Part shown: piece by piece, positions 2-46,922 of the stretch
How positions within the stretch are numbered: the first letter of the stretch is position 1
Layout: each line of letters opens with the position of its first letter
Source of the DNA: Erigeron canadensis
Taxonomy: Eukaryota > Streptophyta > Magnoliopsida > Asterales > Asteraceae
Assembly: GCF_010389155.1 (NCBI RefSeq)
Contig: NC_057762.1
Span: 5,443,513-5,507,512 of the forward strand
Direction: 5' to 3'
DNA length: 64,000 bases
Position numbers and translations under genes: made by a program
The notes under the pieces: model-generated
Told to the model about the DNA's origin: nothing
What the model saw: the letters and a program-made list of their open reading frames with translations, nothing else
Databases searched by the model: none

Positions 2-2476
2 GAATGCACTCAAGCCGGTTACGTTCTTGGTGAAGAACCCAACTGGGATTACCCCTCATTGCAGAAATTTGTACAAGCAGCAGAAAAGCTTGGAGCAAAA
101 CAAGAACGAGGTTATAGTAGCGTAACCTCTGGCTATAAACCACCTACTGAGCCATTAATGGGCCAGGATGGTTATCCACCAGCCACTGGAACAGGTCAGA
201 TTCCAAGTTTTGATCTTAATGGGGTAAAAACTAAGTTATCTAAGGTTAAGGCCGAAGATACTCTTGGCTATGGTATGTGGAATCTCCCCACAGCAGGAGT
301 AAACCAAGGAGTGATGCTGGTCCTACCAATAGATGTAGGGCTATATGAAGAAGTGATTGCAAGATGGGAATCTGTTACTCTTAATGTAATAGATAACCCA
401 CACATGGCATGGACATCAAAGCAACAAAAGGTAACTTATATTGAAAATCTCCTCGGAGATACTGAAAAGAAGACTTTCATTCAATGGCGAATGACGTTCC
501 CTGAAGATTATCAAGCTCTGGTAGAAATTGCTGACGATACTCAAAATATCCTTTCTCAAATAAAAAGGATATTCTTGCTTGAAGATCCCTATCAAGGGAG
601 CACAGAGGAACAAAATAGGGCCTATAATGATCTTGAAAGGTTAACATGTGATAACCCTAAAGACATTTTTAGGTACCTAGACCAGTTTAAGGCATTAGCT
701 GCAAAGTCCGGAAGAATGTATTTTGAAGAAACAACTGAGAAGCTTTTTCGGAAAATGCCTCCACTACTGGGGAATGATATAAGAAAGAAGTGGTATGAAA
801 AGCATCCATCAACAACAGCGGCAGTAGTACCTGTAATATGGTTTACTTATAATTACCTAAAGGAGATGTGCTGTCAAGCTGCCCTTCAAAGAAGCTTAAA
901 AGATCTCTCCTTTTGTGGCCAAATAAAAATTTCTGGCCAATACTCAAAAGACAAGAAGTATGGCCTAAGAAAGGCAACAAAGTACAAAGGCAAACCTCAT
1001 GACTCTCATCTTAGAGTCTTCAAAACAAAGCATGCTGACCGAATGAGAACCCGCAAATGCAAATGTTTCATTTGTGGAGAAGAAGGCCATTTTGCAAGGG
1101 AGTGCAAAAGCTCGAGAGGATATATGACAAGAGCTGCCATGCTAAAAGAAAAAGAGCTACCTGATGACTGTGATGTTGTTTCTGTAGATATGGGCGATGA
1201 AGATTCTGATGGAATTTGTAGTCTCTCTGAAGGGGAATCGGCTGGAAAGACTAAAGAATATATAGCTAATGCTCTCGCAACAGGGCTTCCCGAAGAATGG
1301 GGATATGCATTCGTAGAAGGAAATCAAATTCCTACGAGATCACCAAATGCAAATTGGAGGTCATCATTGCCATTAAATGATGAGCAGAAGAAGTGTATCA
1401 AACATGAGTTGGCAATAAACTCTGAAGTAGCCATAAAAAATGAAGGATGCTCTTTCTGTGGATTAAAAACTACAAAAAGGGTCAGAAGTCACTGTACAAA
1501 ATGCTTACTAACAACATGTAAGTTATGCTCAAAGTATTACTTACAACTAGAAGTAACCCCAGACCCACTAGAAGAAAAAGTTTATCACAATAAAGATGAG
1601 CTCCTTAATGAATTGCTCAGATACTGCATACATCTTTCAAACGAAAATGAAAGGCTTAAGAAGCAGATGGAAAAGAGCCTTGAGCAAGATGTAGAAGACC
1701 TTAAAGGAAAAGGCGCCTTTAAAGAAAGTGAGAAAGAAGAGCTGGTAAAAAAATGGGAGGAATTGGTTAATAGACAAAATCAACCACTTAAAATTAAAGA
1801 TGAAAAGGAAGGTATCAGCGGATTAAAGAAGAACACAGGATTACTTGATCCTAATAATGAAAAGGATAAGGAAGTCCCGAAAAGAAGAGGGCTGAACCCA
1901 GCTAACCTGAAGAATTACGCTGATAGCGACCCAGAAGTAGATGAGGTTAGAGAAATGGAGCATGCACTGGTTATTATTGAGCAAGCTAACCTTGTGCAAG
2001 AATTAGAGACCGTTAAAATGGGTCTTAAAAAGAAGAAAGTCATAAACAGGTTGTATAATCTGCCTGTCACATTTGACATCCCAGGTGTCGAAAGGTTCAC
2101 TGTCAAAGCAATTTTTGACACAGGATGTACTACGTGTTGTGTCGACAGAAATGCTGTTCCGGTAAAGGCCATTGAAAAATGCCTTTACTCCGTTAAGTTC
2201 TCAGGAATTAACTCTGTTCAAGAAGTTGATGAAAAGCTGAAAGGTGGACAAATGGAGATAGGAGAATACAAATTTAGAATTCCGTTTACATATTGTTTCC
2301 CTATGGGAATGAGAGATCGTGATGGCATAGAAATGCTCATTGGCTGTAATTTTCTCAAAAGCCAACAAGGAGGGGTTCGTTTAGAAGGTAATACAGTCAC
2401 TTTCTACAAGGGAATAACAACAATCCAGACAAAGCCAGAAGCCGAGATACAAGGATGTGCTATACAAGAAATGTAG
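2..2476 (+). pseudogene. Badnavirus-like polyprotein, capsid and protease part (5' part outside window)
   Basis: The frame is open from the window edge, so no true start is visible; a TTG at 59 is not a credible start. The first about 100 codons look like the end of the movement-protein region and the linker to capsid. A CX2CX4HX4C zinc knuckle lies at about 1055-1110, preceded by a basic stretch, as in badnaviral capsid proteins. A second cluster at about 1447-1530 has exactly the spacing CX2CX11CX2CX4CX2C, known from badna- and tungroviruses. A Glu/Lys-rich probable coiled coil follows (about 1590-1780). A retropepsin-type aspartic protease with a D-T-G active site lies at about 2117-2125. 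A TAG at 2474-2476 ends the frame between protease and RT; in the family these are one polyprotein. Function would be virion assembly and polyprotein processing; here it is a host-genome relic. Confidence 0.85.
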
Positions 2477-3652
2477 CTAGAAGAAGATGAGTTTTTGGCC
2501 ATTAGTGAAGCTGTGTTCTTCAATATTGGTCACACAAGTATAACATTCCAACAGAAGTTTAAACCTTTATTAGAAAGGTTAAAGCAACAAGGTTATATTG
2601 GGGAGGAACCATTGAAGCATTGGCGAAAGAACCAGATTAAGTGCAAATTGGATATCATTAATCCTGATATCACAGTTCAAGATAAACCCCTAAGCCATGT
2701 CACGCCGGCCATCAAGGAGCAATTTCAGAAGCATATCAAAGCCTTGCTAATACTGGGAGTTATCAGACCAAGCAAAAGCCGTCATAGGACCATGGCAATG
2801 ATGGTCAATTCTGGAACATCGGTTGACCCTAAGACCGGGAAGGAGATAAAGGGAAAAGAGAGGATGGTGTTCAATTACAGAACGCTCAATGATAATACTT
2901 ACAAAGATCAGTACTCCCTGCCTAGTATTAACACCATCATACAAAAGATTGGCAATTCAAAAATCTATTCTAAATTTGATTTGAAGAGTGGGTTCCACCA
3001 GGTGGCAATGGAAGAAAGTTCAATTCCATGGACCGCTTTCATTACACCAGATGGGTTATATGAATGGCTTGTTATGCCATTCGGCCTCAAGAATGCTCCA
3101 GCAATTTTTCAACGAAAAATGGATCATTGCTTCAAAGGATATGAAAACTGTATGGCTGTATATATTGATGATATACTCGTATTTTCAGATGATGAGAGAA
3201 GTCATGCAAAGCACCTGGAGCAAATGTTAAATATATGCAAGGAAAACGGGTTAATCTTATCAGAGAATAAGATAAAAATCGTTGTCTGTGAAGTAGAGTT
3301 CCTTGGGGCAATAATTGGTAACCGAAGAATTAAACTTCAACCTCACATCATCAAGAAAATTGCTGGATTTGATGAAGAAAACCTGAAAAATAAGAAGGGA
3401 TTGCGTTCTTGGCTTGGAATTCTTAATTATGCCCGGGCATATATTCCAAAGCTGGGAACATTATTGGGGCCTTTGTATGAAAAGACCAGTCCACATGGTG
3501 ATAAAAGGATGAAGCAATCCGACTGGGAAATCATCCGCAAAATCAAAAGGCAAGTACAGAACTTGCCAGATATGGAAATCCCTCCAGAGAATGCGTATAT
3601 GATCATCGAAACAGACGGATGCATGGAAGGATGGGGAGCAGTCTGCAAATGA
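2477..3652 (+). pseudogene. Badnavirus-like reverse transcriptase segment
   Basis: This continues the same reading frame after the TAG at 2474-2476 and runs to a TGA at 3650-3652. The palm-domain Y-I-D-D motif is at 3161-3172, preceded by the LPFGLKNAP-like block (about 3074-3100) and the F-D-L-K-S-G-F-H-Q block (about 2978-3005), all typical of Caulimoviridae and Ty3/gypsy RT. The start of RNase H (T-D-G-C, then G-W-G-A) is reached just before the TGA, so the stop cuts into that domain after the first catalytic Asp. In a functional virus this enzyme copies pregenomic RNA to DNA. All visible RT motifs are intact, so decay looks limited to point changes. Confidence 0.87.
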
Positions 3653-4237
3653 AAACGTAAGAAGAATGACCCAAAAAGAGATGAGAAAGTGTGTGCTTAC
3701 GCTAGTGGGAAGTTTAATCCAATAAAATCCACAATAGATGCTGAAATTCATGCTGCCATGGAAGGATTAAAATCCTTCAAAATTTATTACATTGGAAAAG
3801 GCGAAGCAACACTCCGAACAGACTGCCAAGCAATTATTAGTTTCTACAACAAAACTGTCCAAAATAAGCCATCAAGAGTTAGGTGGATGAATTTTGTTGA
3901 TTATTTCACCGGAACAGGGGTACATATCCACTTAGAACACATTGATGGCAAGCTGAATGTATTAGCAGATAATTTGTCAAGGTTGGTTAATGTTCTTATT
4001 GTAGGAAACGAAGAATGCCTTAACCAGGAAGATCAAGGGTTAACAACTCAAGGCCTAGAACTTTTAGATACAACGCTCAAAGAATTATGGGATGGAAGTC
4101 AGCTGGGCTATGACACAGCCCAACAAGAATCTCAAGTCAATCAAGGCCTCATTTCTTTAACACAAATCATAAGAGGTGTAGAACTTGGAACAGAAAAGGC
4201 ATACTATCTCTTGGACTCAAAATTCAAGAAGTACTAG
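3653..4237 (+). pseudogene. Badnavirus-like RNase H segment, polyprotein C-terminus
   Basis: The frame is unchanged from the RT segment and has no in-frame start of its own that makes sense; the first ATG-like codon at 3689 is internal. It holds the remaining RNase H1 acidic positions: the E in the T-I-D-A-E-I-H block (about 3733-3756), the D in the R-T-D-C-Q block (about 3820), and the L-A-D-N-L-S-R block (about 3961-3981). About 85 further codons follow before the TAG at 4235-4237. RNase H would remove RNA from the RNA:DNA hybrid in reverse transcription. Confidence 0.82.
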
Positions 4238-27603: not shown

Positions 27604-28447
27604 TTAAAGCTTCTTCTATTTCTTGACTCACATGTATCCGTATTTGCGAGCATAAATACAAGTGTGTTGTATATGACAAGACATATATGTAAGTGATGTT
27701 GTATGGGTGAGGTCGTGTGGATGAGATATAGAGATATTAGATATATATATAGGCCTATATTTTCCCACACAAGGCTCACTATTTATAGACCTATTTTTGC
27801 TATGTCCACTTTTCTCTTTTCTTTTTATTTTTTAGAATAAGGTTAGTTAATTTCTCTTTCCACATGGATAGGTGGGAAGTCCTCTTGTGTAGACATAGAA
27901 TTACAAGTATACATAGTCCAAATAAAAGACTTTTCTTCCTTTTTATGCTTTCACACACATATGAGAGAGATATTCATATTAATTTGTATTAAGAAGCAAA
28001 AAGAAAAATAAATAAATAAAACCATGTAACAATTTTAAGTTGTTTATCGTTTTATGATTGGTAATAAGCTTGTCGCAGTGTAGCCTGATTATTGGTTGTG
28101 AGCTTTGATTATTTATTTATTTTTTTCATTTTTATTTGTTTTAAAAAAAAATTATGGATTATGTTATCGATAAATAAAATTTCCATCTTAGCATGCGTTT
28201 TAGATTTCTTAAAATTAATTATGAAAATGATTGTTATAACTTACTTTGGTATATGACATTATGCATGTATCATAAGAATTATGCAAATTACTACTATAAG
28301 CATGCATGCTTTAATTATTGTGTTTGTTTAGAGGCCTAAGGAGGTTACACGTTTGATAGAAGCGATCATTATTATGTTTTGATAGAGTAAATGTGTTTGT
28401 ATATATTTAGATTTTACATCTTGTTAAGATATGTTTGTATGTATTTT
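27604..28447. other. Gene-free AT-rich stretch
   Basis: I see no gene, RNA or bounded repeat here, only AT-rich low-complexity sequence. Confidence 0.5.
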
Positions 28448-30263
28448 AAGGTCTATATTTGCCTACCAATTTTAAGAAATATTACCATACCATCACAAAC
28501 GATTAGCTTAGTGTGGACAAAAGTGATGTGAGAAATTAAATATGAAATTTCACAACTAAACTTTTAAAATTTTAAAATTTCACACATTTTAGTATGGATA
28601 AATTTTCTACACAATTTTTAGTTTGATATATTATTACATGTATGAAATCATGACAAATTTTTATTGTTTGTTTACGCTAATTAAAATTGTTGATAATTGC
28701 AATATTGTTTTTAAAAAGTTCTGTCTTTGTTAGATTTAACCATCTATGTATGACGACGCATGGACTACTCATCTTTTTTAGGTTCAACCATCTTAAGTAT
28801 GACAACACACTTAAGTGTATGATAAATTTCTATATATTTTTAGGTGTATTTTTTTTTTTTGAAGCTAATAATAATTACTTATATATACAATATTTATAAG
28901 AGTGAGATTCTAATTAAATATAATTTTACACATTTTTTAAGTGTGACAGAATTTTATAAATTTTTCACGATTAATAAAGGCATGGATAATTATCATATTT
29001 TTTGTAGTGTCACGAAAGTGTTATTATTATTCTTAGCGATTCAAAATTTTAGGATTCTTAGTTGTAATATAGATGTACAAATTTTAAATGTGTCAAAATA
29101 AAAAATTTAGTTTTATTGTTTTGTACAACTACATTTTTTAATCATGACATTATATAGATATTATTTAATTTGTAATTAAAATTACTAATTAGAAGTTATA
29201 AAAGTGGTTTAAACTGATTGTACAACATACATAAATACGTTATAACAAATTAGTTTAATTGTTTTATACAACTATATTTTTTAAGCATGACATTATATAG
29301 ATATTATTTAATTTGTAACTAAGGTTACTAATTAGAAGCTATAAAAGTGGTTTTTTAAGGTCTATATTTGCCTACCAAATTTTAAGAAATATTACCATAC
29401 CACCACAAACGATTAGTTTGGTGGGGACAAAAGTGATGTGAGAAATTAAATATGAAATTTCACAGCTAAAATTTTAATAATTTCACACATTTTAGTATGG
29501 ATAAATTTTTTACACAATTTTTAGTTTAATATATTATTACATGTATGAAATCATGACAAATTTTTATTGTTTGTTTATGCTAATTAAAATTGTGGATAAT
29601 TGCAATATTGTTTTTAAAAAGTTCTGACTTTGTTAGGTTTAACCATCTATGTATGACGACGCATGGACCACTCATCTTCGTTAGGTTCAACCATCTTAAG
29701 TATGACAACACACTTAAGTGTATGATAAATTTTTATATATTTTTAGGTGTGTATTTGTTTTTCTTTTTTTTTTTGGAGCTAATAATAATTACTTATATAT
29801 ACAATATTTATAAGAGTGAGATTTTAATTAAATATAATTTTACACATTTTTTAAGTGTGACAGAATTTTATAAATTTTTCACGATTAATAAAGACATGGA
29901 TAATTATCATATTTTTTGTAGTGTCACGAAAGTGTTATTATTATTCTTAGCGATTCAAAATTTTAAGATTCTTAGTTGTTATATAGATGTACAAATTTTA
30001 AATTTGTCAAAATAACAAATTAGTTTAATTGTTTTATACAACTACATTTTTTAATCATGACATTATATAGATATTATTTAATTTGTAATTAAGGTTACTA
30101 ATTAGAAGTTATAAAAGTGGTTTTAACTGATTGTACAACATACATAAATACGTTATAACAAATTAGTTTAATTGTTTTATACAACTACATTTTTTAAGCA
30201 TGACATTATACAGATATTATTTAATTTGTAATTTAGGTTACTAATTAGAAGTTATAAAAGTTG
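28448..30263. repeat. 909-bp tandem duplication with internal 143-bp repeats
   Basis: The phrase AAGGTCTATATTTGCCTACC at 28448 recurs at 29357, and the following about 800 bp stay highly similar. Each large copy ends in two units of a 143-bp repeat (TTTATACAACTACATTTTTTAA, then GACATTATATAGATATT) near 29110, 29250, 30015 and 30158. Small ORFs inside are AT-rich and shared between copies only because of the duplication, so I do not call them genes. Confidence 0.82.
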
Positions 30264-30272
30264 TTTTAACTA

Positions 30273-39878: not shown

Positions 39879-42800
39879 TCATACAACTTTCGGTTTTCCG
39901 GTTCCAACCGTGCCATCATTTCCTGCCAACATCTTATACTTATCCTTCCTCGTAAAATTCGTGCATTCGTATGACAAAGTTGACGCGATCATCCGTTGAA
40001 TATAGTTCGCGACATCATGACTTGATTTCCCATTTGCACAAGTTAATTCATAAGGTAACTTGTTCAAGAAGTTAACTTCGTAAGCCGGACTAGGGTTCAT
40101 AAAGAAATAAAAAGGGTCCATTCCTTTCCACCCTCTTGCAGTTGTCCCATGAAACATACTCATCTTATTTGACATCGCGACCGGAGCCAATTCGTCGGTA
40201 AGCTCAGCAAACAAAGCCGAAAACCTTAGCAAAAAAGGTTCTCTACATGTGGTTCCTTCTGGGCATATAACCAAATCACCTTCTTCTAGAAGCTTCTTGA
40301 TCATGTTAGCATCCGTGGTTCGGTCTCTACTGAGTCTAACTGTTTTGATAGGGGAGATGATCTCCGAAAGTCTTGATAACGAATAGGTGACCGCAGGGAT
40401 AGGACGACCAAGGGCGGTCGAGAGAAAGATGGGGTCAAGTAGAGATCTATGGGAACAAATGAAAAGAACCCCGGTTTGACCGGTTGACTTTTTGGCTGGC
40501 GGGGGTGGTGTTCCTTTGATATAGACACGTACACCGAGTGCCCAAAAGGCGTAGTATACTAAAGACATTGGAAGAAGGCAACCGGCTAAGATACGTAGGC
40601 ATGCAAGAAGAAACCCGACCGGGATCCAAAGGATCGTGATCAAGGCGGTGAACGGGGTTAGTTTGTGGACTAGCCGGCCGTCGTGGAACACCACCGGTTT
40701 CGGTAGCTTGTCTACGGTTACTGCTTGAAGGTCTTTGGTTGCAGCTGGTACTATGTAAGCTTCCTGAAAGTTGAGTAAATGAGTTTGGTCAAATATATCA
40801 AAAAAACAGGATATTATGTCAATTAATGAGTCTATTAATTAAATTTCTAGTCAATGCAAACCGCAAACGTGTCATATATATGACCTCTTTGACCTTTTCG
40901 GTTACTTAAAAAAGTCAAACTATAAACTTTCCGTTTAAGGTACTCCGTGTTAAGCGAACTAGATAAATCAGAATCCGCCAATTCTCTCATTGAAGAAATA
41001 AGATGAAAGTCAGCCACTGAAAGTTTATCTAGAGTGACCCAATTAAATTGAAGTTTATATTTATTTTTGTGTTTTAGCAATCAATTTGTTGTCATGTCTA
41101 CCAATACATAATTTAATTAATAAATTTTCATATCAAAATAATTGAGATTATAGTTTAAGTATACAAAAAAAAATTAAAAATAAAAATTGTATGTTTCATG
41201 TCAAAAACATGTTTTGAATTTTATGTTAAATGTATAACTCTTTTATACACCTTAATTACAACCTTATAGAATATATTAAGTAAAACTTTTATTTTTAATT
41301 CATAAAAAAATATACTTTATCTTAATTAATTAAACATCAAACTTTTAATTTTCAATCAATAAGATACAAATTTTAATCTCATCAATAGTAACAAAACACC
41401 CTATATGAACATATATATACATATAAATTTTTTTTAATGACATTATAATATATTCTACTCTTAAATAACATAATTAAAAATCTTACTAATAAACCATCAA
41501 CTTTTTTGACTTCATATATAAATATATTAATTCTAATAAAGCAGTATCTAGTGTAGAAAATAATTTTTAAAACACAAACATTGATGTGGGAAAAATAATT
41601 CGGAACGGGGCGTTTATACGTTATATATTTATCACGTTTCATGATGCATAAGGCTGTAAACGAACCGAATGAACATGAACGTGACTTTGTTCATGTTTGT
41701 TCGTTTAACTTAACGAACGGTTCACGAACAGATAAACGAACATAATGATTTGTTCATGTTCATTCGTTTGTGTTCATGAACTGTTCGTGAACAGTTCAGT
41801 TCATTTACAGCCCTATGCATAACTCTCATAGTTTGTTCTCTTATGTTTCTTCTTGTATATATATTCGGTACTATATATATATATATAGTTTGTTTTCGCT
41901 CTCTTAAATTTTAAATATTAATTATTTATGAGTATATACTAGACTTTTATCAAACTTAACGCATAGAAACTAACAATAGTTTCTTGATCGATCTTTTAAT
42001 TAGATAACAAAAAAAATTTCATAGAAAAGATCGACACCGATAGAAATGACGACATTCGGCTCCCTTAACTACCAACTTTGGTCAATGGTGATGTAACAAA
42101 TTAAGACATCTATATTGATCAAGTTTTTGAATGTTCAAAAAAGAAGTTATTTTCTTTATTGTTAAAAAACAATTAGTGTTGACTTTTTAACAAATTCATG
42201 TATTTTCCATATACATAATTTTTTGAGACGAGCTCGAGATAATTTAAAAGCTTTAACTAATCCTAAAAAATTTCAAGTTTGTAGACAATAAATAGTTAAT
42301 AGTCAAATCCTTTATATAACAGTACTTAAAAATAAAAGATAAAAAATTATTATATAAACTAATTACCTTGCATAATTGCATGTATGGATAGTCGGTTTTC
42401 CGGTCACCAAGAGCCAACTCGGGTAAAGATTCATTTTCAAAAGCCTTCAAAAGCGCATCAGCCTTGTTACTTCCTACAAGCACTCCGGGCCGCTTTACAA
42501 GCCCGGTAGCCCGTCCTCTCCAAGTACAAATCTCGGTACCCAAAACCGAGTCCGCACCCAAATACTCTTTCAAAAACGGTTCCACCATCACACTCGGGTT
42601 CGCGGTAAGCACATACCGCTTCCCACAAGCTGAGAACACGCGCCACGTCTCGGGGTGCAAGTCACTCGCGTAGAACTTTGGCAACACGGCTCGTGCCACG
42701 GATTCGATATCACAAACTTTTAATCCCGCAAAAGTCGCGAATATTAAAACACGAATACCAGCTGACTCGGAAAGGAAGTAATATAGAATCCCGGCTATTG

Positions 42801-43005
42801 GAGATAATAGGAGTAAAAAAAGGAGTCTTAATATTCCTCCAACTTCAAATGCGACGAGGGCAAAATAAGGGAATGAACTACGTCCCCGTAGTAACGTTCC
42901 GTCTAGGTCGGATACCACAGTTTGGTTTTCCCGGCCATACGTTTCGCATTTCGTGATGGCCGGGAATTCATGTGGATATTCGGTATTCTTTAGATGACCG
43001 GCCAT
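39879..43005 (-). CDS. RAM2: Glycerol-3-phosphate sn-2 acyltransferase, RAM2-like
   Basis: Exon 1 is 43005-42367 and exon 2 is 40763-39879, both phase 0, giving 507 residues. The donor is GTAATT at 42366 and the acceptor TTTCAG ends at 40764. The N-terminal HAD-type phosphatase part keeps D33-L-D-G-T and G200-D-R-K-T-D, so it should be active, unlike GPAT5/7 where it is degraded. Hydrophobic segments lie at about 50-80 and 250-290. The acyltransferase part has block I H318-R-S-L-L-D323, then [12 protein letters not shown], and block [18 protein letters not shown] at 381-395, in the ER membrane. The enzyme transfers an acyl group to sn-2 of glycerol-3-phosphate and removes the phosphate to give 2-monoacylglycerol. 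As far as I can recall the family, the closest match is RAM2, which makes lipid for arbuscular mycorrhizal fungi; a cutin-type GPAT4/6/8 is the alternative. A TATATATA at 43082-43091 (- strand) sits about 80 bp upstream. Confidence 0.83.
40764..42366 (-). other. Intron of the RAM2-like gene, 1.6 kb
   Basis: It separates the phosphatase part from the acyltransferase part of the protein. AT-rich; contains one small hAT MITE (41652-41814). No other gene is seen. Confidence 0.75.
41652..41814. mobile_element. hAT MITE in the RAM2 intron, 163 bp, 8-bp target duplication
   Basis: ATGCATAA lies at 41644-41651 and 41815-41822. The ends GGCTGTAAACGAACCGAA and, on the - strand, AGGGCTGTAAATGAACTGAA are inverted. 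The interior is full of short GTTCGTT/AACGAAC and TTCATG words on both strands and would fold strongly. Confidence 0.83.
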
Positions 43006-43890
43006 TGTTATTTATGTATGTAGATTGGCTTTTGTTATGGACTACACACTTTAGTTTGGCGATGTGTTAGACATAGGTTTGTATATATATAGTGTTTTGA
43101 TTTGAAGGATATAGTAGTTAATTAAAGAAAAGCCTAACTTTTATTGGAATCTTATTAACAGTTAATGAAAATAATTATTTAAAGTAGTGATGTTGACTTA
43201 CATCGGACATAATTCAATGTGTGTATAAATATTCTTCAAATATTTATTTGAAAATCTTTTAAACATTATATACTCTATTTATTTATTCAGAATATCAATG
43301 TATATTATTGATTAAGTCATGATTTTTTTATTAAATATATACGGTTGTTTATGGGTTGAACGAGATTGCATTAGAAAATGAGTATTTCATCGTCTTTGGT
43401 ACTCTCGTCCAATGCCATGGTTGGTTACTTTTAAGGAGATTATTAATGATTTCAATGAAATTTAACAAAAATTAATTGGGATTTTGTGTTAACCGAACAA
43501 GATAAAAGTAAATTCAAATTAATTTACTTCAAATTTTATTGAAAATTTTAAATGAAACGGTTTTTTAATGATATACGCAGAGTATTATATATTATAATTA
43601 TTATAATATAATATTAACTAAGATAGATAGATATTATTTGAGACAACCGTGGAAGATAGATGAGTATTAAATGGAAAAAAGGGTATATGGACGTTTGTTG
43701 TTATTAGATGAGGAGGCAAGTTGAAATTTTTAATGAGCGAAGCTTTTTGAAACTCCTGAGCTTAGGTAAACCCGATACGATTTGACCTTTTGTTATTTAG
43801 TCCTGCATTTACAATGAAAAAGGAATCGTAAGCCTGAATATAACATTCGTAAGCCTATTCTCGTTAAAATGTATATATATATATAATATA
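43006..43890. other. Presumed promoter of the RAM2-like gene and AT-rich flank
   Basis: Apart from the TATA-like box at 43082-43091 (- strand) I see no bounded feature. Mycorrhiza-responsive motifs would need a motif scan. Confidence 0.4.
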
Positions 43891-44314: not shown

Positions 44315-44561
44315 AAGCAGCAAGGTTAGATCAAGTGGTTAACACCCTTGCCTCTGGAGTCAGAGGTCATGGGTTCTATCCTCATCCCTTGCAAGGCGGG
44401 AGGTCCTTTTCTATCTTTAAATAAAACCTGAAAGCAGTCTCTCTACACCGTCCTGTTGGGGTAAGGTTGTCTACATCTTAACCTCCTACGTACACCGTCG
44501 AGGTATTGGGACCCAAAACCCGTGAAAGACGGCATTGAGCAAAACTTACTTACTTGGTTGG
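44315..44561 (+). mobile_element. tRNA-derived SINE, 247 bp, 16-bp target duplication
   Basis: TTGGTTTTTGTCCCGT occurs at 44299-44314 and 44562-44577. It has an A-box-like TTAGATCAAGTGG near 44326 and a B box GGGTTCTATCC near 44371. The 3' part has GGTATTGGGACCCAAAACCC, a phrase shared with the truncated copy at 21270-21395. Confidence 0.88.
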
Positions 44562-44969
44562 TTGGTTTTTGTCCCGTGTACAAATTTCATACAAATAACT
44601 TAACAAAAACTCATTATTAAAAATTAACTTCTATTGAAAAACAAACATAAATTTTTGTAAAATTTAAGTAAAATATCAAGAAAATACAAAATAGTAAACA
44701 TTATTACAAGAAAAAAATAATTGTAAATATCAGGGTGGGCAAAGTGTTTTTCCACTCCTCTCCACTTTTTTCATCGGATGGGGATTCCTTCAAGTTCTTC
44801 AACTTGATTAATCAAGTTAGAGAAATCTTGATAACTCAATTATAATCAATGGTCAAAATTTAAATTCGTTGTATTTTGAATTTTAACTATTGGTTTTGAT
44901 TCAATGGTCAAGATGCTTCTAACTTGACCAGGAGATTTCCATCCTTTTTCATCTCTCCTTATCCTCATC

Positions 44970-46917
44970 TGAAAAGCACCGGACTCGATAAACCGAAAAT
45001 ACAAAATTTTTTATACCCCCACTGCGCCACAGTGGGCTGAGAACTCCCCACTGCGCCGCAGTGGAAAAACTCGGCACAGGAAGGAAAAAGCCCCACTGCG
45101 CCGCAGTGGGTTTGACACACTCCCACTGCGCCGTAGTGGGAGGAAAATGAAATCTGGTCCGAAGAAATCCACTGCGCCGCAGTGGGCAAAGCTAGCCCCA
45201 CTACGCCGCAGCGGCCTATCTGATCAGCAACCTTCAAGTGAACAATTTTTGAATCAAACCAAAACTCCCAAATCACAACCCAACTTCAACATATGACATA
45301 TTGCAGAATTACAAACGAGTATTTGACATCATAACGTACATATTTACCAAATTCCTTTGACCCAAGAACAACTACACCATCAATGGGTCAATTACCTATT
45401 TTGACATTTTCACAACCATAAGGAGTAAACTTTGCCAAAATCAAAAGTCATAAAAGGAACCATTTACATGTACCAAAATATGACATAAAACTACCAAATG
45501 TACCAAGAGCCAAAGTTGGAGGGACATCTAATTGTCTAACCAAAAGAATGTCATTCCTTCGAGAATAGCCAAATAACTTCCAAAACCACTAGCAACCTTC
45601 ACTCTAGCTTCCATCCAATTCAAACCTAGTTCCTTCTTCCGGAACTACCTATAACAAAAGGGAAACATCTAAAAAGGTAAGCGAAAAGCTTAGTAAATAT
45701 GCTTGCATATGATCATATAAACGAAGGAGGGTCAATGCACAAAGGACTATTGCATATAGACTATGACACCGTCGTGTCATATCTATAATGCTCACCTTTG
45801 TGTCAAGCGCATTACATGGATCCATATAAGCAAATGATTACATAAACAATAGACATCACAATAACAATGCTCCTCATGAGCTATGGTCACCTAAAGCCAC
45901 TACTTAGGCTTAACGCCAAATCAATTACCACACATGGAACGACTTAACATCGTATGGTAATTGACCCGACGATTATACAAAGATATGCAAATATACTCAC
46001 CTCCTTCTCGACACAATAACAGATCAAGATAACCGCAATTTGCAACAATTCAAGCTTTTAACCTATCAATATAACATAATGCACACATAAGGCAATATTC
46101 ACTTTTCTAACCATCTCAACATAGCTAATCAAACTTTTCACTAGCATTCATAACCTCTAACCAAAACCCACTATGACATTGAGTTGCTTACTTATCAAAT
46201 TCTCCAAATAAATTCAAGGATATCAACATCTTCACATTATTTCACTTACTAATAAAATTCATCATTTTTATAGTTGGAGCTTCATTACCAACATTCTCAT
46301 TATAAACAATTTCAAGTAAGCAACTCAATAACTAAAACATAATGAACAAGAATTTTGGGGGAAATTCACACATGCACTCAATTCTTGCAAAAAAACCCCA
46401 ATTACCCATGATAAGAATCCTAATTCCTAGAAAAGAGGGGAAATTAGGTTAAAAAAGTAATTACCTCAAGGAACTCAAGACTAATTTAATGCTTTAAATT
46501 ACAAGATTTCTCCTCCTCTTTTCTTCTTGATATTTTCGGCCACCAACACCACCCAATAACCCAAACCCTAGCTTTATTCTTGAAAGATAAATGACAATAG
46601 TGATTCCAGGTGATTGTTATTATTAGTTGAAATCTTGAATTAGGAGATATTTTCTATGAACTCCTTTGAAATTGAAGGAGTTAGAAGTGAAAAGAAGAAA
46701 TGGAAGTGGAAATATGACTAAGGGGAAAAGAATTTGGCTGGCAACACAAGGAAATGCTACGCCACTCTCTCTCAAATTAATGGGTAATTTACCCGCTATC
46801 CGCTAAAGTTTCAACTAAATTAACCCCATATCAAAAAATAAAATATTAGGAACTTATTTTAATGTCAAAACTACAAAAAGGGTTAATTTATTACCTTAAA
46901 ATTATCGGGGTGTTACA
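44970..46917 (-). mobile_element. Solo LTR, 1,948 bp, TG...CA with 5-bp target duplication
   Basis: TCATC lies at 44965-44969 and 46918-46922. Inside it, TG and CA form the outer bases. Read on the - strand it begins TGTAACACCCCGATAA, a start common in plant Ty3/gypsy LTRs, and this sets the orientation. No gag, pol, primer-binding site or polypurine tract exists in or beside it, so it is a solo LTR left by recombination between two LTRs. Near its 3' end (- strand sense) are six GC palindromes (45018-45215). Its length fits a chromovirus-type LTR, but lineage is a guess. Confidence 0.82.
45018..45215. repeat. Six 19-bp GC palindromes in three 75-bp units within the solo LTR
   Basis: The consensus CCCACTGCGCCGCAGTGGG has 9-nt arms around a central C. 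Copies begin at 45018, 45047, 45092, 45122, 45168 and 45197, so gaps alternate 29, 45, 30, 46 and 29. That is three dimers at a 75-bp period. The arms are nearly invariant while the spacers between them differ. An ORF on the - strand crossing them is a by-product of the repeat and I do not call it a gene. Confidence 0.88.
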
Positions 46918-46922
46918 TCATC

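Follow-up and report, generated by a model that had tools for sequence, protein, structure and literature searches.

Arrays of an oriented palindrome with fixed spacing recur in two Ty3/gypsy retrotransposon families of Erigeron canadensis

A 64,000-nucleotide stretch of the Erigeron canadensis genome (RefSeq assembly GCF_010389155.1, contig NC_057762.1, positions 5,443,513 to 5,507,512 of the forward strand; here the window) carries a solo long terminal repeat (LTR) in which a 19-bp palindrome, CCCACTGCG-C-CGCAGTGGG, is repeated six times. The array is a real feature of many copies and of two element families; it belongs to a known type, the palindromic motif array of LTRs, here in a variant form in Ty3/gypsy elements. 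Judged from sequence, it may act in cis in the regulation of an LTR retrotransposon, as a platform to which dimers of a DNA-binding protein bind; we favor this reading with about even confidence. With about 5,500 sites sharing one word and one spacing in two Ty3/gypsy families, the arrays make a testable case for one host factor controlling different retrotransposons, and they offer a test of whether such palindromes are retained for the sake of transcription or are subject to silencing.

The palindrome array of the window

A pattern scan of the window located six copies of the word between positions 45018 and 45215, each with no more than three mismatches, and none in 100 dinucleotide shuffles of the window. 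An earlier note made from the letters of this DNA had described a 19-bp palindrome repeated six times with alternating 29/46-bp spacing; the repeat was described correctly, and the spacing nearly so, the true start-to-start steps being 29, 45, 30, 46, and 29 bp. All six are read on the minus strand. Palindrome 1 (45018 to 45036) lies nearest the LTR 3′ end, followed by palindromes 2 (45047 to 45065), 3 (45092 to 45110), 4 (45122 to 45140), 5 (45168 to 45186), and 6 (45197 to 45215), with 1, 1, 0, 1, 1, and 3 mismatches, respectively, to the commonest word (107 of 114 letters in agreement). C-to-T or G-to-A changes account for five of the seven departures. No compensatory changes were present among the six palindromes, and the four spacer pairs compared in this copy showed no significant likeness.

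The array was the sole cluster of at least three GC-containing dyads within 400 bp in the window, and 20 first-order Markov controls never gave a dyad cluster above two. Chance and a simple tandem repeat were ruled out by the shuffles, the Markov controls, and the absence of a Tandem Repeats Finder report at the array. A coding repeat was rejected, as two open frames searched across the array had no homologue; a known structured RNA and a viral origin were likewise set aside, with no Rfam match in the window at the gathering level and no match among viral contigs. For a bacterial origin, the paired pattern gave no match among genome contigs. The single word was present at three bacterial loci, where about two were expected by our own estimate, and a second match (≤4 mismatches) within the 8 kb taken per locus was found near only one of them (L001), 1.4 kb away.

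Abundance and spacing in the genome

The genome searched comprised 426 Mb, with the window on contig C2. Allowing two mismatches, the word was found at at least 5502 sites on one strand and at least 5485 on the other, and the pattern read backward gave no matches. As the word is one letter away from its own reverse complement, the two counts must be largely the same sites, so that the number of sites is about 5,500. Dividing by about five sites per array, we arrive at the order of a thousand arrays.

Besides the window, arrays were characterized in 40 stretches of contig C1 (20 of them 9.9 kb long and the other 20 of 1.7 kb), each surrounding a listed exact match to the 19-mer. Every sampled stretch was chosen for holding the exact word, and the sample is thus biased toward LTRs that carry an array. 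With units called at up to four mismatches, 53 arrays of one to nine units were identified, six units being the commonest size (23 of 53). Steps between matched units (n = 206) were concentrated at 28 to 31 bp (110) and 44 to 48 bp (67), and a further 15 steps of 70 to 82 bp are explained by one unit too degraded to match. Best-fit units were placed at the expected offsets in these 15 ∼75-bp gaps, giving 274 units and 221 steps for later counts. The step means, taken within preset ranges and with the put-in units included, were 29.9 and 45.1 bp, and 75.0 bp for two steps (s.d., 0.8, 1.2, and 1.6, respectively). Grouping by flanking sequence yielded group A with 28 arrays (the LTR family of the window), B with 10, C with 6, and D with 3, plus two arrays outside the groups; the same core was present in all four groups, which do not cluster with one another by their flanks.

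Conservation of palindromes and divergence of spacers

Between copies, the palindromes were far better kept than the sequence separating them. Across 23 canonical six-unit arrays with groups A to D mixed, corresponding palindromes were 80 to 90% identical between loci, spacers were 52 to 59% identical, and shuffled spacers were 42 to 46% identical. In 16 aligned LTRs of the family of the window, identity was 0.93 for the core, 0.91 for the palindromes, 0.61 for the spacers, and 0.73 for the rest of the LTR, and six of the best 30 blocks of 12 bp coincided with the six palindromes. Comparison of 13 of the 28 family A arrays gave differences at 767 of 8963 palindrome sites (8.6%), 1706 of 6408 spacer sites (26.6%), and 10883 of 46936 flank sites (23.2%); for 7 of the 10 family B arrays, the values were 9.4, 26.6, and 10.4%, respectively. 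The earlier contrast between well-kept arms and varying spacers is therefore supported across LTR copies in that the palindromes are far better kept, and the result that would have refuted it, arms and spacers both mutating at random, was not observed.

Anatomy of the unit and folding of the arrays

The best-kept part of the unit is a 13-bp core, ACTGCG-C-CGCAGT. Unit positions 4 to 9 and 11 to 16 agreed in 94 to 100% (267 unit positions from 49 arrays of at least three units), the center base agreed in 94% of all 274 units, and the outer three positions were variable. On the array strand, the center base was C in 139 of 148 units and G in 1 of 148, which makes the motif oriented. The proposal that selection acts on the palindrome itself thus holds insofar as the palindromes are kept above the spacers, and is to be narrowed to a 13-bp core with an oriented center base.

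The arms were compared across copies for compensatory changes, a check that the earlier note had proposed, and the outcome differed between core and outer pairs. Within core pairs 4 to 9, only one double change was present in 267 units, which favors recognition of the sequence over pairing as such. At the outer pairs 1, 2, and 3, double changes numbered 32, 32, and 10, of which 18, 24, and 9 were complementary (51 of 74 overall), indicating that symmetry also counts, although part of the T-A outer pairs could stem from double deamination. In groups C and D, outer pairs were complementary above column shuffles in five of six tests, with shuffles that ignore relatedness, and in group B the outer three pairs were complementary in only about half of the units. 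A sequence-fixed core therefore bears arms that are free to change yet tend to stay symmetric.

The compensated outer pairs are also what would be expected if the array acted as RNA, with 5′ leader hairpins or pairing between units serving to package or dimerize the genomic RNA, to control translation, or to protect the leader ahead of the primer-binding site. When both strands were folded at intervals of 20 nt, no part of the window folded more strongly than the array (−63.3 kcal/mol per 110 nt). Energies below −40 kcal/mol were obtained for each of the 42 arrays tested (26 of 28 in A, 7 of 10 in B, 6 in C, and 3 in D). In family A the array also lies just upstream of the primer-binding site and would be within the leader if transcription starts upstream. 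We nevertheless regard such a role as somewhat unlikely: the near absence of double changes in the core indicates that the sequence itself is kept and not pairing alone, group B lacks consistent pairing of the outer arms, and the family B array lies upstream of a TATA box and hence outside the leader. The spacers add nothing to the fold; a contribution of spacer pairing was rejected, as shuffling the spacers did not weaken it.

Folding at this level bears equally on a silencing explanation, in which the array would chiefly be a target of the host, with read-through hairpins feeding small RNAs and methylation, as has been proposed for Sirevirus palindromes, and the element keeping a motif that it needs in cis. 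All 42 tested arrays pass −40 kcal/mol per 110 nt, the threshold that PMC10760457 applies to microRNA (miRNA)-like regions in maize, and methylated cytosines would be expected to give C-to-T and G-to-A departures of the kind seen in the window copy. That paper cites work in which Sirevirus palindromes attract small RNAs, and describes maize Ty3 elements as generally without a clear peak of miRNA-like structure. Silencing would account for the host seeing the array but not for the element keeping it, and the hairpin stems are short; this explanation is judged unlikely. The RNA and silencing readings are the main rivals, chiefly because the family of the window has its array at the LTR 3′ end and because the arrays fold strongly. 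Both had been put forward in the earlier note beside a protein-binding array, and both stay in consideration, ranked below it.

The solo LTR that carries the window array

The LTR of 1948 bp, TGTAACACCCCG...GCTTTTCA, occupies positions 44970 to 46917 with its element sense on the minus strand. It has TG...CA ends and is bordered by a perfect 5-bp target-site duplication, TCATC, at 44965 to 44969 (left copy) and 46918 to 46922 (right copy). The chance of finding a random 5-mer of the window followed by TG in this manner was estimated at a P of 0.0024 within 100 bp and 0.042 within 500 bp. The 3′ end is supported by relatives, whose LTRs end in CCTTTCA or similar followed by TGGTATCAGAG. Neither a TGGTATCAGAG primer-binding site nor a second LTR of the same kind was found in the window, and this solo LTR is a dead copy.

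In element sense, the array spans LTR positions 1703 to 1900, leaving 48 bp to the LTR 3′ end. A TATAAAAAA-like A tract (45007 to 45015, minus strand) adjoins it directly afterwards. Positions 45026 to 45279, overlapping the array, are the only stretch of this LTR to pass an EMBOSS-like CpG-island rule as implemented in our own script. An R-U5 location had been suggested for the array; a U5-side position is supported, given that the primer-binding site starts 56 to 59 nt after the array in the four arrays with an exact site, with the qualifications that the carrier is a solo LTR and that the R/U5 border itself was not located. An integration signal, also suggested earlier, found no evidence, the array lying at least 48 bp from the LTR terminus.

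Near the left side of the insertion site is a 117-bp imperfect inverted repeat (44812 to 44927; 72%) resembling a miniature inverted-repeat transposable element (MITE). A MITE split by the LTR was considered as independent proof of the LTR ends and was not significant. A tRNA-Gln-like sequence (44320 to 44393, plus strand) also lies near the solo LTR and presumably resembles the head of a short interspersed element.

Two Ty3/gypsy families share the core and spacing

The window array belongs to family A, a Ty3/gypsy family that is chromovirus-like. Two family A loci (L022 and L016) carry protease, RVT_1, and RNaseH domains followed by integrase, and L022 also carries SH3_Tf2-1; no chromodomain match was found, even at an E value of 5. 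The domain order of both family A and the B/C/D element is that of Ty3/gypsy. Integrase, SH3_Tf2-1, and the LTR start TGTAACACCC point family A to the Del/Tekay chromoviruses, although the U5 end differs and a chromodomain match is lacking. An exact primer-binding site was present in 4 of the 42 arrays listed, starting 56 to 59 nt after the array, and L022 has a one-letter variant. A TATA form directly follows the array in 14 of the 28 arrays, the others having an A-rich tract without TATA; a TATA-like string beside the window array was rejected as a fixed promoter, not being conserved across the family. Two family A arrays on contig C1 at 11.27 Mb (L038 and L039) lie 6.9 kb apart and are identical over 853 compared sites; the second has a primer-binding site, and the pair is probably a very recent insertion.

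Family B consists of an LTR of 1.57 to 1.64 kb with ends TGATGTG...CACATCA (three copies), preceded in the L023 copy by a polypurine tract. In 8 of its 10 arrays, a TATA box starts at position 70 or 71 from the start of the last palindrome. Arrays C and D, it seems, sit inside the B-type element: read in coding sense, L023 holds RNaseH, array D, array C, further open reading frames (ORFs), and then a B-type LTR. The domains of the B/C/D element are reverse transcriptase (RT) and RNaseH, followed by integrase in L026. From the polypurine tract and the LTR ends, this element may be a relative of Athila/Tat. The 400 bp that follow the C and D arrays showed no such TATA box. The search for the palindrome outside the LTR family of the window, suggested in the earlier note, was thus positive, with the same core and spacing present in a second Ty3/gypsy element.

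In L026, the arrays have integrase on one side and, on the other, an extra ORF of 582 amino acids (L026:790-2535, minus strand) with no Pfam match and no hydrophobic segment. Such an ORF would suit an array bound by an element-encoded protein instead of a host factor, for self-recognition or antisilencing of the VANDAL/VANC kind, and PMC12844716 describes VANC proteins as binding tandem motifs in VANDAL elements. The abstract of PMC11728184 further states that a conserved additional ORF of sunflower Tekay group 2 resembles double-stranded-RNA-binding proteins; according to its discussion, however, the structural match was to maize and sorghum proteins, with no sunflower Tekay hit, and such proteins bind RNA, not DNA. 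No ORF of this kind was identified in family A, and a word common to two element families would go unexplained without exchange, which leaves an element-encoded binder improbable.

The flanks of A and of B to D showed no clear homology, with scores slightly above shuffled that are unexplained. Same-strand spacers of families A and B were not alike. In element sense, the short spacers of A and of B to D were 0.49 to 0.53 alike, compared with 0.42 to 0.45 when shuffled, a difference likewise unexplained. The string [CT]TCG, noticed by eye before it was counted, was present at offset 3 to 6 of the long spacers in 17 of 42 cases in A, 6 of 9 in C, and 5 of 5 in D (shuffled, ∼0.5, 0.3, and 0.1, respectively) and in 1 of 18 in B (shuffled, 0.2); it may represent a second site or be left over from common descent. 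The arrays had a GC content of 60 to 63% and a CpG observed/expected ratio of 0.71 to 0.80, and the family B flank had an observed/expected ratio of 0.83 at 32% GC, the CpG-island rule itself having been run on the window LTR only.

These likenesses bear on the possibility that the array has no function and is a mutational product, arising by template switching at hairpins or as a module spread by recombination, that a few master elements carry. The [CT]TCG string shared by A, C, and D makes common descent of some arrays possible, the short spacers and some flanks of A and B to D are slightly more alike than shuffled, and unit numbers from one to nine imply that units are gained and lost. Against this, divergence between copies is three times lower in palindromes than in spacers, and family B keeps a fixed TATA distance; a functionless array is judged very improbable.

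A regulatory reading of the array

In the favored reading, a sequence-specific DNA-binding protein would sit as a dimer on each dyad, with its core ACTGCG-S-CGCAGT. The sharing of one word by two different element families makes a host factor the most likely candidate. With steps fixed at 30/45 bp, a pair of units takes up 75 bp, or about seven turns of the helix; several dimers would thereby be held in a set geometry, which could increase transcription of the element. In the family of the window, the array on the U5 side would act in the same way as the family B array upstream of TATA. Of the earlier proposals, the protein-binding array is accordingly the one preferred here, as a candidate suggested by sequence. 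A cis-regulatory role is favored because the layout, with an LTR array before TATA, arrays before an extra ORF, and a CpG-rich stretch, is that of the Sirevirus RM boxes. GCGGCG lies in the center of the core on one strand, and in PMC9612921 the same string is the site used for maize LBD2 in yeast.

Several observations weigh against this reading. The family of the window has its array at the LTR 3′ end and in the opposite orientation, with no promoter located. In element sense, the center base is G in family A and C in the B/C/D element. No 8-bp alignment bin had TATA in at least 5 of the 16 LTRs of this family, in an alignment that is ragged beside the array. No transcription factor was matched to the core, LBD proteins being a lead only. 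The exact 13-bp core was present in only 65, 72, 69, and 62% of the units in groups A, B, C, and D, respectively; the four-mismatch limit used for calling units itself raises part of the core identity, and the 15 of 274 units inserted by best fit raise it somewhat further. Comparison within four probable LTR pairs was small and mixed, with differences of 5/76, 0/114, 1/56, and 2/72 in palindromes (sum, 8/318), 1/64, 0/91, 0/23, and 12/116 in spacers (sum, 13/294), and 135/595, 0/648, 29/644, and 10/540 in flanks. Only in L035/L036 were palindromes better kept than spacers; that they were no better kept in the other three pairs is as expected of dead copies, and the flanks of the L022 pair are so different that a simple LTR pair may be doubtful.

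A wider proposal is more tentative. It is possible, if doubtful, that two Ty3/gypsy lineages of one plant are hooked to one dimeric host protein, or exchange one regulatory module, through an oriented 13-bp dyad in 30/45-bp arrays placed before the promoter in one lineage and before the primer-binding site in the other. If so, one host factor would act on about a thousand dispersed arrays together, either switching them on or protecting them.

Comparison with known systems

The closest counterpart is the repeated motif (RM box) of the Ty1/copia Sireviruses (PMC2829016). The two are alike in their multicopy short palindromes with diverged flanks, the CpG-rich LTR stretch, the position upstream of TATA (here in family B), and copies before an extra ORF (here C and D). 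They differ in carrier, which by its domains is here Ty3/gypsy and not a Sirevirus, and in the word, ACTGCG-S-CGCAGT lacking the CGG...CCG arms. The spacing is here strict at 30/45 bp with six units as the commonest array size. RM boxes lie in the upper half of the LTR, whereas the array of the family of the window lies at the LTR 3′ end. Their criterion of at least eight copies per element compares with one to nine per array here; two LTRs plus internal arrays would exceed eight, no whole element having been counted. Where the RM cluster delimits a CpG island, the only island-like stretch overlaps the array here, as seen in the window LTR only. A place shortly upstream of TATA is matched by 8 of 10 family B arrays, whereas no conserved TATA was found in family A.

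With the Del/Tekay elements of PMC4029996, the window LTR shares the start TGTAACACCC, which is the most frequent U3 att among Del elements of sorghum and maize, an LTR length within the eudicot subgroup means (about 1.2 to 3.7 kb), and a CpG island in the LTR. In that study, however, eudicot Del elements had no CpG island, 3′ islands occurring in a grass cluster, and the word "palindrome" is absent from its main text. Neither Del/Tekay form of the U5 end (type A, with GGG at −10 to −8; type B, with TTC) recurs here, the end being GGTGCTTTTCA in the window LTR and mostly ...GTCCTTTCA in relatives. Del/Tekay integrase is followed by SH3-like and chromodomain segments; here, SH3_Tf2-1 was found in L022, with no chromodomain match at an E value of 5. 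Palindromic or tandem binding boxes also act as LTR transcription activators in Tnt1 (box I), like here, although in a Ty1/copia element, with other sequences and few copies. Tnt1 box I and similar LTR enhancer repeats are named in PMC2829016. The short interrupted repeat cassettes (SIRC) of Arabidopsis (PMC10342631) resemble the arrays in that some units are palindromic and many similar sequences lie in LTR/Gypsy elements; they are a mixed class from a CRISPR finder, whereas here one word has a fixed place and spacing across families.

PMC2829016 describes palindromic repeated motifs as Sirevirus specific and absent from the classic elements compared there. In the open-license literature, as far as its accessible text extends, neither this word nor arrays of this type were found described for these lineages, the word itself not having been searched as text.

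Other features of the window

Positions 59 to 4234 (plus strand) hold ORFs matching a caulimovirus coat domain, zinc knuckle, protease, reverse transcriptase, and RNase H, forming an endogenous pararetrovirus-like stretch. TIR, NB-ARC, and LRR domain pieces on both strands between 5015 and 21945 constitute a resistance-gene cluster with breaks. A tandem duplication of ∼920 bp (94% identity) spans 28441 to 30267, and a GPAT exon lies at 42256 to 43011; among its named matches, the best is from Helianthus annuus (84% identity).
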